A stretch of DNA of 64,000 nucleotides from Candidatus Endomicrobiellum trichonymphae (lineage in GTDB: Bacteria; Elusimicrobiota; Endomicrobiia; Endomicrobiales; Endomicrobiaceae). Where the stretch lies: positions 744,001-808,000 of the forward strand of contig NZ_AP017459.1 of the NCBI RefSeq assembly GCF_002355835.1, in the 5' to 3' direction. Each line of letters opens with the position of its first letter. The first letter of the stretch is position 1. Of the stretch, positions 6,072 through 54,439 are shown in pieces. The position numbers and the translations under genes were made by a program. Under the pieces are notes generated by a model. It saw only the letters and a program-made list of their open reading frames with translations. It made no database searches and had not been told where the DNA came from.

Positions 6072-6602
6072 TCAAACTTGATTAAGATAATTTTTATAAG
6101 TGTTATAAGACGAAGCAAATTTTATATATTCAAGAGTCAGTTTTACTTTATTTATAACCATAATGTACAAAACAGTAGCACACGATTGCAGTTTTATCTT
6201 TTACCTAAATCTATTGTAAAAAACCGCCGCTATTACCGATCTTTCCGTCAGTTTAACAGCTTCTCTCTCAATTATGAACGCCATTATAACTATATCTTTA
6301 AAAGGAATATTAATTTTTCCCGCCCTTTTGTACATATCAAGACATAACTTTTTTATTAAATTTGCTGCACATAATTTCAATCAACTGTTTTTCGTTCATT
6401 TCCGGATTAACAAAATACGTTTCAGGCATAAGATTAGCCTTCCAATTACTTTTTCAGAAAAACTGTAAACGCCGGCTTTAAGTTTATTTTCTCTTAAACG
6501 CACCGTTACCACCGAAGCGCTGTCACTGCTTCGCACGCTTATTAAAAACTTTATCAGAGGATGAAAAAACGCAGACGGGCAGACATATTAGCACTATCAG
6601 CA
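6072..6602 (-). pseudogene. mltG: mltG remnant (endolytic murein transglycosylase)
   Basis: Immediately after ruvX, in the usual ruvX-mltG order, the minus strand carries MltG/YceG homology spread over several frames. It begins with a membrane anchor (LLIVLICLPVCVF), then VRLRENKLKAGVYSFSE, then MPETYFVNPEMNEKQ. The catalytic-region block IPFKDIVIMAFIIEREAV continues to SVIAAVFYNRF, followed by a stop, then KIKLQSCATV, and finally LEYIKFASSYNTYKN. Intact homologues read ASIVEKEA, IAGVFYNRL, LQSDPTV and SPYNTY at these places. Several frameshifts and stops and a missing C-terminus show the gene is dead. Loss of MltG affects glycan chain-length control, while PBP1A elsewhere in the window is intact. 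Confidence 0.82.
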
Positions 6603-6606
6603 ACTC

Positions 6607-7029
6607 TTACTCATCAGACTGTATATCTAAATACGTCTGCAAAATTAATGCTGCAACAACTTTGTCTTTAATACCTTTTCGCTTTTCTCTGGAAATATCG
6701 GCTTCTTCAATAAGCATTCTTTCAGCTTGCACCGTAGTAAGCCTCTCGTCAACAGTTGTTACTTCAATATCCGAAAGAAATTTAATTTTTTCAATAAATT
6801 TACGGACAGTTTCAGCCATTCCGCCTTCAGTGCCGTTCATATTTAAAGGCAACCCCAAAACAATTATTGAAACATCCCTGTTTTTTGCAATTTCTAAAAT
6901 TTTTAAAGCATTTTTCTTTAAAGATACATTTTTTACAGTGTCAAAAGGACTTGCTGTAATCCGCAAAAAGTCTGTAATCGCAATTCCTATCCGTTTTAAG
7001 CCGTAATCAATTCCCATAATCCTGTTCAT
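6607..7029 (-). CDS. ruvX: Putative pre-16S rRNA nuclease / Holliday junction resolvase-like (YqgF)
   Basis: RNase H-fold YqgF/RuvX protein, involved in pre-16S rRNA 5'-end maturation and proposed as a resolvase. Marks: RIMGIDYGLKRIGIA at the N-terminus with the first catalytic Asp, VLGLPLNMNGTEG in the middle, VDERLTTVQAE with the second acidic residue, and KDKVVAALILQTYLD at the end. Length (140 aa) is typical. Two starts are possible: GTG at 7047, which sits right on the AGAGGG sequence, and ATG at 7029, which matches the family N-terminus and is used here. A decayed mltG follows. Confidence 0.9.
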   Translation of the reverse strand: MNRIMGIDYGLKRIGIAITDFLRITASPFDTVKNVSLKKNALKILEIAKNRDVSIIVLGLPLNMNGTEGGMAETVRKFIEKIKFLSDIEVTTVDERLTTVQAERMLIEEADISREKRKGIKDKVVAALILQTYLDIQSDE

Positions 7030-15171: not shown

Positions 15172-15244
15172 TGAGCCCGGTGCGGTTCGAACGCACGACA
15201 ACCTCATTAAAAGTGAGGTGCTCTGCCAGCTGAGCTACGGGCCC
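15172..15244 (-). tRNA. tRNA-Lys (TTT)
   Basis: A complete cloverleaf on the minus strand: acceptor GGGCCCG/CGGGCTC (one G-T pair), D stem GCTC/GAGC, anticodon stem CCTCA/TGAGG with loop CTTTTAA (anticodon TTT), T stem GTGCG/CGCAC and discriminator A. CCA is not encoded. It is the upstream member of a tRNA-Lys-tRNA-Glu pair. Confidence 0.95.
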
Positions 15245-25859: not shown

Positions 25860-26519
25860 TTATTCATTAAGCTTTATCTTCTTATTATTTCTCATATTTA
25901 TTACTCCGACAGAAATGACAAACTGAAACGCCTGTTCCACCGTATAATCGGTATAAACTACTTCTTCTTCTTTAAATAACAGCAAAAAACCCGTCGTAGG
26001 ATTAGGTGTAGTCGGCATAAAAGCACAGAGATGTTTTTCTCCTTTAACCGACTGCTCGCCAGTTAAAAAAGCAACGCTGTAAACTCCTTTACTCGGATAA
26101 GGCACAAAAATAATCTTTTTAAATTTTTCCACGTTGTCGTTGCCGAATATAAAATTTATAAATTGTTTTGCCGCGGAATGAACTTTTCCAAAAACAGGCA
26201 GTTTTTTAATAAACTTTTCTGCTGAATTTAAAGCACTTTTCCCGAAAACCCTGTTTGTAATAAGTCCTAGAACAATTATGCTTATAATTGAAATAAAAAA
26301 ACTCGAAATTCTTGCTATGATATGCACCCAATATGTATCAACGACAAAGTAATTTACAACGGGAAAAGCAAAACTACTTACCCATTTAAAAAGAATTTTC
26401 ATTATAGAAAACGTTAGCCATAACGGAATGACAACGACTAAACCTGTCATCACATACTTTTTAATTAAAACGCCGATTTTTTCTTTTAAAGTTTTTTTTT
26501 TCTGTTTTTCATTTTCCAT
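25860..26519 (-). CDS. DUF502 family membrane protein
   Basis: A 219-residue protein with two clear membrane spans near residues 24-48 (YVMTGLVVVIPLWLTFSIM) and 68-88 (ISSFFISIISIIVLGLI), then a soluble domain with KLPVFGKVHSAAKQF, FVPYPSKGVYSVAF and CAFMPTTPNPTTGFLL. These are marks of DUF502, a widely conserved family of unknown function. It overlaps the 3' end of the phosphohexomutase pseudogene and precedes hisS by 16 bp. No function is assigned. Confidence 0.85.
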   Translation of the reverse strand: MENEKQKKKTLKEKIGVLIKKYVMTGLVVVIPLWLTFSIMKILFKWVSSFAFPVVNYFVVDTYWVHIIARISSFFISIISIIVLGLITNRVFGKSALNSAEKFIKKLPVFGKVHSAAKQFINFIFGNDNVEKFKKIIFVPYPSKGVYSVAFLTGEQSVKGEKHLCAFMPTTPNPTTGFLLLFKEEEVVYTDYTVEQAFQFVISVGVINMRNNKKIKLNE

Positions 26520-27530
26520 AAATAAAATCCCTGCCTATTTTTAAAAGTTCATTGAGTTTTACCTGTGAATCAGATTACGCCTATATTCTTACTAGAGGTT
26601 CTGTCCCCGAGAGTCTGAAGCCTATCCACGTACTGTCGTCTAAAATAAATTTATGTCCATCGATGGTTATGCTTTTTTGAACTTTCATACCGGCAATACT
26701 TTTCGGATGCTTTGTTTCCAAAGTGCTTCTGGAAATATTCATAATCTCTGACGACAAACAAAAATCAAGTCTTGAAGTTAAAGTTTCGCCAACTAGCTTT
26801 TTAATATCTTTAAGCAAACTCGCTACAGATTTCTTGCTCATCGCAGTGGCTTCTGCCCTCAAAAGACATGCAAGAATTCCGTCTTTTTCAGACACATGCC
26901 CTCTTATTGTAAGACCTCCAGATTCTTCACCTCCGATTAAAAATTTGTCGGGATTATTCATCATAACTTCTCCGATATATTTAAATCCCACCGGTGTCAG
27001 CACAACTTCAAACGCCTATTTTTGCGGCAAAATTGTCCAAAAAATGGCTTGTCATAACGCTTCTTACTGTAATTCCAGTCCAGCCGCTTTGTTCTATTTA
27101 AATTATACAAAAGAATTAGGTATAACCTGATTGGAGTTATAAAAGTTCCGTCAGAGTCTATGACTCCAAATCTGTCAGCATCAGCATCCGCAGAAAGCCC
27201 AAGACTATACGCGATTCCTTTTTATTCCCGACTTCAAAGGAACGGATTTTACATCCTTGCTTTAGTATTTCTCTATCCTTTTTGTGGTTTCAGAAAGAGC
27301 GACCATCCCACGCGAGAGAACATTTTAATCCGTTCCCAGCCAAAATATCCGCGGCAGTTTTCGCAAAATCTTCAGACATAAATCTCGTATCATGTCCTAT
27401 AATGACAGAAGCTTTTTTATACTCTATCTTTAAGAAGATTCGCAATAGCCTGAGTAACAATAGCGACATTGAGGTAAGTAAATTCTTCCGCAATAATCCC
27501 TCTCCAACCTGACGTTCCAAATTTAATCAT
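26520..27530 (-). pseudogene. Phosphoglucomutase/phosphomannomutase-family gene, decayed
   Basis: The ATG at 27530 opens [17 protein letters not shown], the start of an alpha-D-phosphohexomutase. After about 35 codons the frame stops and continues in another as KASVIIGHDTRFMSEDF. Later the metal-binding block appears as ADADADRFGVIDSDG in another frame, then FLIGGEESGGLTIRGH and FRLSGTEPLVRI. Two stop codons follow, and in the same frame QVKLNELLKIGRDFIYG completes the usual C-terminus up to the DUF502 start. No TASHNP-type phosphoserine loop is found, so part of domain 1 seems deleted. The gene is clearly dead; an enzyme of sugar-phosphate or envelope precursor metabolism was lost. Confidence 0.85.
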
Positions 27531-48007: not shown

Positions 48008-48637
48008 TCAAAAAAAATCATTAAAATATTTTTTATTCTTTTGAATTTTATATTTCAAAGACTTTATAATTGTTTTTACTGCAATCACAGCTTTATCTAG
48101 TTTATCATTTATAACCAGATATTCGTATTTTTGAACGGATTTGACTTCTTCCACCGCATTGCCAAGCCGCATTTTTATTATCTTTTTGTGGTCTTTATTT
48201 CTTGAAACCAGCCTTTCCTTAAGCGTTTTTAAATCAGGCGGCATTACAAAAATCATACAGGCGCCAGGATACTGCTTTTTTATGCTCATTCCCCCTTGAA
48301 TGTCAACGTCCATAAGAATATTTTTTTTCATTTTTAACATCTTGCCTAAAAATACTTTCGAAGTACCGTAATAATTGCCGTGAACTTTTGCCCACTCGGC
48401 AAATTTCCCCTCTTCAATCATCTTTTGGAATTCAGTTCTATCTATAAAAAAGTATTCTCCGCCGTTTGTTTCATCTTTCCTCGGACACCTTGTAGTGTAA
48501 GATACTGAATACACCACATTTCTGCTACTTTTGACAACAGCATTGCATATAGCAGTCTTGCCTGCTCCAGACGGCGCAGAAATAATTATTATATTACCTA
48601 ATGATTTAGCACTAGAATTGTTTAATCTTTTATTCAA
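48008..48637 (-). CDS. gmk: Guanylate kinase
   Basis: Phosphorylates GMP to GDP. Marks: IIIISAPSGAGKTAIC (P-loop), VVYSVSYTTRCPRKDETNG, GEYFFIDRTEFQKMIEEG, WAKVHGNYYGTS and MDVDIQGG. The frame extends upstream to an ATG at 48688, but that lies inside tRNA-Pro and cannot be the start. No ATG is available after it; the TTG at 48637, with GGATT about 7 nt upstream, is the best choice. First protein gene of gmk-rpoZ-coaC-coaB-udg-priA. Confidence 0.88.
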   Translation of the reverse strand: MNKRLNNSSAKSLGNIIIISAPSGAGKTAICNAVVKSSRNVVYSVSYTTRCPRKDETNGGEYFFIDRTEFQKMIEEGKFAEWAKVHGNYYGTSKVFLGKMLKMKKNILMDVDIQGGMSIKKQYPGACMIFVMPPDLKTLKERLVSRNKDHKKIIKMRLGNAVEEVKSVQKYEYLVINDKLDKAVIAVKTIIKSLKYKIQKNKKYFNDFF

Positions 48638-48661
48638 CTCAAGAATCCAAACAAAAAAATA

Positions 48662-48735
48662 TCGGGAAGGCGGGACTTGAACCCACAACCTCCTGCTCCC
48701 AAAGCAGGCGCGATAGCCAATTACGCTACTTCCCG
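48662..48735 (-). tRNA. tRNA-Pro (TGG)
   Basis: The minus strand folds with acceptor CGGGAAG/CTTCCCG, D arm, anticodon stem CCTGC/GCAGG with loop TTTGGGA (anticodon TGG), T stem GTGGG/CCCGC (one G-T or mismatch position) and discriminator A. CCA is not encoded. It immediately precedes gmk and overlaps the longest gmk reading frame. Confidence 0.93.
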
Positions 48736-52545: not shown

Positions 52546-53247
52546 ATGAAAGCGAAAACAGTGTTGATAACAGGAATTTCAAGAGGAATAGGCAAAGAAC
52601 TTACGTCATCTTTTTCAAAAAACGGGTGGAATATCTGCGGCTGTTACAAAAATAACAGTCCGGATTATACAGTTCCAAATTCTAAATTTACAAAAGCGGA
52701 CATATCAAAGCATAATGAAGTAAAGGAGCTTATAAAAAGTTCAATCAGCGAGTTCGGTAAAATTGACTGCGTTATAAACAATGCGTCAGTTGCAAAACGC
52801 GCAACCATATTTAGAATGACCAACGAAATGTGGGAACGCGTCATTAAAACAAATTTAAACGGAACTTTTTACATAATCAAAGAGGCATTAAGAACAATGA
52901 TAAAGCAGAGAAGCGGCTCAATAATAAATATCGCATCAATTTCAGCATTTAAATCTTACGTCGGCGCGGCAGGCTATTCAGCTTCAAAATCAGGGGTTAT
53001 ATCTCTAACAAGAACAGCCGCAAGAGAGGCAGGACGTTTCGGAATAACCGTAAATGCGGTTTTGCCGGGTTTTCATTTTACAAGTATGGGTGACAATGCG
53101 GGAGACGCATACATTGAAGAAGTTAAACGGAAAAGCGTTTTAAATGCTACTACAGACATCAAAGAACTTGCCGATTTCATTCTTTTTCTCGCCGGGGTAA
53201 AAACAGTATCCGGCCAGATTTTTAACTTTGACTCAAGAATAGCATAA
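52546..53247 (+). CDS. fabG: 3-oxoacyl-ACP reductase-like short-chain dehydrogenase
   Basis: SDR-family NAD(P)H reductase, 233 aa. TGISRGIGKELTSSF is the nucleotide-binding loop; NNAS at about 80, the Ser in NIASISAFKSYVG and the catalytic YSASK (about 146-150) are intact. The C-terminus AGVKTVSGQIFNFDS matches FabG. Since it is followed 65 bp later by a ketosynthase, the pair belongs to fatty acid or related polyketide-type chain extension. GGCAG-type sequence precedes the ATG. It is divergent from valS. Confidence 0.88.
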   Translation: MKAKTVLITGISRGIGKELTSSFSKNGWNICGCYKNNSPDYTVPNSKFTKADISKHNEVKELIKSSISEFGKIDCVINNASVAKRATIFRMTNEMWERVIKTNLNGTFYIIKEALRTMIKQRSGSIINIASISAFKSYVGAAGYSASKSGVISLTRTAAREAGRFGITVNAVLPGFHFTSMGDNAGDAYIEEVKRKSVLNATTDIKELADFILFLAGVKTVSGQIFNFDSRIA

Positions 53248-53312: not shown

Positions 53313-54439
53313 GTGGCAAAAATCAAAAAGCGGAAAACTCAGATGAAAGACACAAAACAATTCGGAATTACAGGAATCGGGATAATTTCACCTCTGGGTT
53401 CAGGCAAAGAAATAAACTGGCGGAAACTTATTAATTCCGAATCTCAAGTCCGTTATGACAAACAATACAACGCATACACTGCTCCGGTTTACGGTTTTAA
53501 AATGCAGGATGATATGCGACAATATGAGATGGCAAAAAGTGCAATTTTTGAAGCTCTGCAGGAAGCTGACATAAGAAATTCGAGATATAAGAAAAAAAGA
53601 ATCGGATTTTGCATTGGAGAAAGCAAAATAAACCCCTTTAACAGAGTTTTTACTTTTGAAAATACTCTATTAGAAAGACTCAAAAAAATTTTCAGGTTTC
53701 ACGGCACTATGCTTGCAATATCTGCGGCATGTGCGACAGGCGCTTTGGCAATCACAAAAAGCTGTAACTTTATAGAAAGCGAACTATGCGATGCAGTTAT
53801 ATGCGGGAGTGCTGAAACTTCAATACACCCCCTGTATATTTCGGCATTTAAAAATATGAAACTTCTAGCAAAGCACAATCCGAGTCCTTTTGACAAAAAT
53901 AGAGATGGTTTCGCAATAGCGGAAGGCGCCTGTTTTATTATAGTTGAAGATATAAAAAAAGCATTGAGCCGCGGAGTAAAAGTTTACTGTGAAATTAAGG
54001 GCTTTTCAAACAAAATTTATTCAAATGACACTCTGTCCGTACATTCGCATAAAAAGATGAAAGATATAATAAAAAAGCCATAAACTCAGAAACGCCCGAC
54101 TACATACACATGCATGGAAGCGGCACAAAATTAAACGATTATTACGAAAGCATGGCTGTTGCAGAAAACTTTGAAAACGCAGATAAAATTTCTTTAAGCT
54201 CCACAAAAGCAGCGACAGGACATATGCTCGGAGTTTCCGGAATGATAGGAGCGGTTTTCTCAGCACTTGCGATAAAAAACAATATTGTCCCCCCTACTTT
54301 AAATTTTAAGCATACCGATATAAATCTGGGATTGGATTATACTCCAAACAAAGCAAAAAGAAAGATTATAAATTCTGCTCTGTCTCTCTCTTTTGGATTC
54401 GGAGGACAGGGTGCCGCTCTTTTTTTCAAAAAATTATAA
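53313..54439 (+). CDS. fabF: Beta-ketoacyl-ACP synthase (FabF-like), with one -1 frameshift
   Basis: Ketosynthase spread over two frames. The first (to 54083) has GITGIGIISPLGSG and the active-site Cys in SAACATGALAI (near residue 140); the second has both catalytic His residues, in HMHGSGT and STKAATGHMLGVSG, and ends SLSFGFGGQGAALFF. The frames join at A_AAA_AAG (54071-54077), a perfect -1 slippery heptamer in register; after the slip the reading GCC-ATA-AAC continues into the second frame exactly. The in-frame stop follows one codon after the heptamer. It is either a single-base-deletion pseudogene or rescued by slippage. Start is GTG at 53313 (AAAGGGG very close) or ATG at 53343. Total about 375 aa, shorter than typical 410. 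Confidence 0.8.

Follow-up and report, generated by a model that had tools for sequence, protein, structure and literature searches.

The ketosynthase (KS) gene described here is probably an incipient pseudogene: a young frameshift, born of slippage, in a dispensable second KS. Its loss was probably very recent and an ordinary case of gene breakage. The gene lies in a stretch of 64,000 nucleotides (the window), which was analysed as a whole. The Endomicrobium genome containing the window amounts to 1.13 Mb in four contigs. Endomicrobium are endosymbionts of termite-gut flagellates, within the phylum Elusimicrobia.

Direct reading confirmed a first-pass annotation of this DNA in that the fabF-like gene (53343-54439, + strand) is made up of two open frames. 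The upstream frame (53343-54083, +) starts with ATG 53343, ends with TAA 54081-54083 and holds the N-terminal domain (PF00109, E 1.5e-24). The downstream frame (54053-54439, +), shifted by -1, is open from 54053 to TAA 54437-54439 and holds the C-terminal domain (PF02801, E 2.8e-20). NCBIfam FabF models matched both halves, which together make up the two domains of a single beta-ketoacyl-ACP synthase. The catalytic Cys-His-His residues had been annotated as kept, and all three were found: the Cys in the upstream half (SAACATG) and both His in the downstream half (HMHGSGT and TGHMLG). The gene is otherwise intact and carries a single lesion, again as annotated. Directly upstream of it lies an intact fabG-like ketoreductase gene (52546-53247, +), identified by profile matches and by comparison with relatives, in which it is collinear with KS. 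The two genes sit between valS and clpB.

At the junction, six A (54071-54076) are followed by a G (54077). The codons of the upstream frame read ATA AAA AAG CCA TAA, which puts A_AAA_AAG (54071-54077, +) into the register of a -1 shift, as had been noted before. Contrary to the earlier description, the two frames do not meet exactly at this heptamer; they overlap by 31 nt (54053-54083, +). The overlap is bounded by TAA 54050-54052, which closes the -1 frame on its upstream side, and by TAA 54081-54083, which closes the 0 frame, and the frame change must fall inside it. Because of this overlap, the position of the shift is not fixed by the window sequence alone, and the lesion was placed in the A-run only by comparison with relatives.

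The nearest KS orthologue, from Endomicrobium sp. Hs463_bin80 (G060; L031), is intact and shares 91% amino acid identity over the N-terminal part. Its junction reads ATA ATA AAA AAA GCC, with seven A (A7) compared with six (A6) in the window, a one-base homopolymer difference from an intact close orthologue. Intact orthologues were found in 13 congeneric genomes (59-84% identity), and three further ones in Endomicrobium, that of Hs463_bin80 among them. All 16 of these readable orthologues are encoded in one frame, with junctions such as AAA AGA GCA (G025) and AAA AAA GCT or similar in others. The first-pass annotation had proposed a comparison of the A-run in related strains. Among the Endomicrobium orthologues examined, the frameshift was present in the window genome and in none of the relatives, and a search of viral contigs for variants of the junction gave no match. 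The alignment indicates that the lesion is the loss of one base from an A7 run, restricted to the window genome.

How such runs behave was seen in the part of the window collinear with the Hs463_bin80 genome (39377-64000, 92.8% identity in the alignment). Considered were A/T runs of exactly seven bases in the relative that were kept pure in both genomes. Outside intact genes, six of eight had changed in length by one since the two lineages split; inside genes it was one of 23, and that one is the run in KS. Indels thus strike A7 runs more than any other site here, and selection normally shields genes from them. These data bear on an earlier argument, namely that a heptamer in register would be a rare target for a plain indel. 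Loss of one A from the A7 run of the nearest relative creates the heptamer automatically, and seven-base A/T runs are the very sites at which indels are most frequent in this DNA. Of random 31-nt in-frame stretches taken from 35 reading frames in the window, 2.6% contained an in-register A_AAA_AAR. In the same frames, the phase that gives an in-register heptamer was found for 66 of 152 A-runs of at least six bases (43%) and for 20 of 38 A7 runs (53%). Given an indel in an A-run, the in-register heptamer is therefore expected about half of the time, and the improbability argument fails.

Within the 64-kb window, KS is the sole gene with a single mid-gene frameshift. Most of the genes that are intact in Hs463_bin80 are also intact in the window, and some differ at one end only. 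A few genes are heavily decayed, among them two with intact counterparts in the relative (6089-6452 and 26509-27224), so decay is still going on in this DNA. At 6089-7006 there is a remnant of a 316-aa gene that is intact on contig C14 of the relative; 38% of it aligns, with three frameshifting indels and a stop. A decayed match to a 472-aa gene, intact on the same contig, was found at 26509-27224, with half of its length covered, five frameshifting indels and two in-frame stops. At 48008-48735, a 226-aa ORF overlaps a tRNA-Pro gene (48662-48735) on the same strand. Several small indels relative to Hs463_bin80 at its upstream end make the start of this ORF uncertain.

The two halves of KS were compared for signs of relaxed selection. 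Between the window and Hs463_bin80, dN/dS was 0.245 for the N-terminal half and 0.039 for the C-terminal half. A value near 1 in the downstream half, which the first-pass annotation had named as evidence against its own reading, was thus not found. When changes were polarised with G025, the window branch had 7 synonymous and 13 nonsynonymous changes in the N-terminal half and 6 and 1 in the C-terminal half; the Hs463_bin80 branch had 11 and 7, and 6 and 1, respectively. With two outgroups and slightly different limits, the counts on the window branch were 8 and 14 in the N-terminal half and 6 and 2 in the C-terminal half. For the whole gene, 14 nonsynonymous and 13 synonymous changes on the window branch compare with 8 and 17 on the sister branch (Fisher p 0.17). 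Neighbouring genes had a dN/dS of 0.21 on both branches, and that of the whole KS on the window branch was close to theirs (Fisher p 0.55). The window KS is not significantly relaxed.

The lack of any decay beyond one base is a point against a pseudogene. If KS has been neutral since the lesion, the lesion covers at most roughly 20-30% of the window branch; with no other decay, a pseudogene therefore requires a young loss. A very young lesion would equally leave a low dN/dS in the C-terminal half, so this value does not tell it apart from rescue or an error in the sequence. The conservation that persists in the downstream half leaves three options: a recent loss, an error, or rescue of the gene.

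A loss of KS has taken place in relatives as well. In G019 (L018, 1501-2562) the same gene is a heavily decayed pseudogene containing some 17 stops, and the fabG that partners it is truncated; G011 retains a KS fragment with stops. Only the canonical FabF (about 36% identity) was found in G010, G013 and G033, which are 90-95% complete, and in many smaller congeners. Both genes were searched for in G001-G025, and no congener of this set that lacked KS had its fabG partner. The genome containing the window encodes elsewhere a full-length, intact canonical fabF (C1:869827) and a second, likewise intact fabG (C1:871513). With this fabF intact and many congeners devoid of KS, the window KS is dispensable.

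An incipient pseudogene would have arisen as follows. In the lineage of the window, replication slippage would have taken one A out of the A7 run in the KS that is paired with fabG. Translation would then stop just past the A-run, giving a product of 246 residues that lacks both catalytic His, and little or no active KS enzyme would be made. The cell could bear this loss because it retains the housekeeping FabF and FabG, whose genes lie elsewhere. Three points of this account are inferred: the cells truly carry the base difference, they make no useful full-length protein, and FabF takes over the function.

It is unlikely that most or all cells have an intact frame and that the frameshift stems from faulty sequencing or assembly, or from a minority allele carried by a mixed population of symbionts. 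A single-base homopolymer difference is the commonest sequencing error and also the commonest mutation, and both the single lesion and the unrelaxed constraint fit an error or a rare allele. Variation within host cells is on record for a related 'Ca. Endomicrobium trichonymphae' population, with 0.77 SNPs plus indels per kb (PMC7608387). However, a run of six A is short for the errors of modern short reads. None of the 22 other scorable genic seven-base A/T runs differed from the relative, which argues that such errors are not frequent in this assembly.

Rescue, which had been called plausible in the first-pass annotation, was not supported by the features of the site, and we consider it improbable. 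Full-length KS would then be made by a ribosomal -1 slip at A_AAA_AAG or by addition of an A by RNA polymerase, and purifying selection would persist, as the strong conservation of the C-terminal half would allow. The heptamer is in register and among the most shift-prone ones in E. coli. The next two bases, CC, are a favourable 3' context; no other 3' dinucleotide was as shift-prone in an E. coli study (PMC5009743). However, both stimulators are missing. No Shine-Dalgarno (SD)-like element, defined as lying 6-17 nt before the motif (PMC4066793), was found upstream: 54041-54071 is without GG, and hence without GAGG, GGAG, AGGA, GGNGG and AGGKG. A dnaX-type stem-loop would start about 5-9 nt after the heptamer; no downstream structure exceeded shuffled sequence (z -0.48 to +1.12), and the best fold (-5.6 kcal/mol), which starts 16 nt past the heptamer, was no better than the shuffles. 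Where stimulators are lacking, the best heptamers in E. coli yield about 0.3%, and a favourable 3' context raises this to about 3.7% at most (PMC4066793). The heptamer is shifty there because the only tRNA-Lys of E. coli pairs weakly with AAG (PMC5009743). The genome studied here encodes a tRNA-Lys(CUU) (G000:C1:368681) besides the tRNA-Lys(UUU) at 15172-15244 of the window, and this second tRNA should weaken slipping at AAG. In addition, A_AAA_AAR occurs in frame 50 times in the 14,387 codons of the window genes, so the site alone marks nothing.

For slippage of RNA polymerase, the length of the run matters. Rescue at poly-A has been reported in Buchnera and Blochmannia (PMC5009743; PMC3017870), and bypass in a laboratory gene extended to homopolymer indels of 3-8 bases (PMC3812077). 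However, transcript insertions climb exponentially with run length (PMC5574713). Most of the recorded bypass occurred at long poly-A tracts with at least 10 A (PMC3812077), and long poly-A runs are also what the demonstrated cases in symbionts rely on (PMC5009743). The A6 tract of the window is shorter than these, and no relative shares the frameshift.

Rather doubtful is a variant in which the symbiont tolerates the lesion because low-level, accidental -1 slipping at this unusually short A-run, not programmed and aided by the CC, makes enough KS, the gene having been caught soon after the mutation. A conserved programmed frameshift regulating KS, to which only the register of the heptamer points, was rejected, as the 16 orthologues are encoded in one frame and the stimulators are missing.

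As a separate observation, the C-terminal half of the genome's own dnaX (L041) contains A_AAA_AAA in frame, at nt 1277 of the extracted ORF, possibly a natural recoding site in this phylum.

None of these readings would be a new kind of system. As an incipient pseudogene, the window KS would capture one moment in the death of genes in reduced symbiont genomes, which begins at the longer A-runs and in genes with a backup. The changed seven-base runs, six of eight where unconstrained and one of 23 in genes, are a compact illustration of this. Rescue, if true, would show that poly-A rescue also works at far shorter runs and in one more phylum. With the -1 frameshifting of E. coli dnaX, the window KS shares the identical A_AAA_AAG in the same register. 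It differs from dnaX in that it has no SD-like element and no stem-loop, in the two lysine tRNAs of its genome and in a two-frame arrangement that is not conserved. With the poly-A slippage rescue of Buchnera and Blochmannia (PMC5009743), it has in common an A-run frameshift in a symbiont gene under apparent purifying selection; in contrast to those cases, it has a far shorter tract and a frameshift that other lineages do not share. The homopolymer-indel pseudogenes of Blochmannia (PMC3017870) differ in that many of their tracts are 9 or longer, compared with 6-7 A here, and the KS frameshift is seen in no relative. Like them, however, the window KS has an A/T run that changed in length by one base but is otherwise intact, and it is a dispensable gene of a reduced, AT-rich genome in which decay continues.
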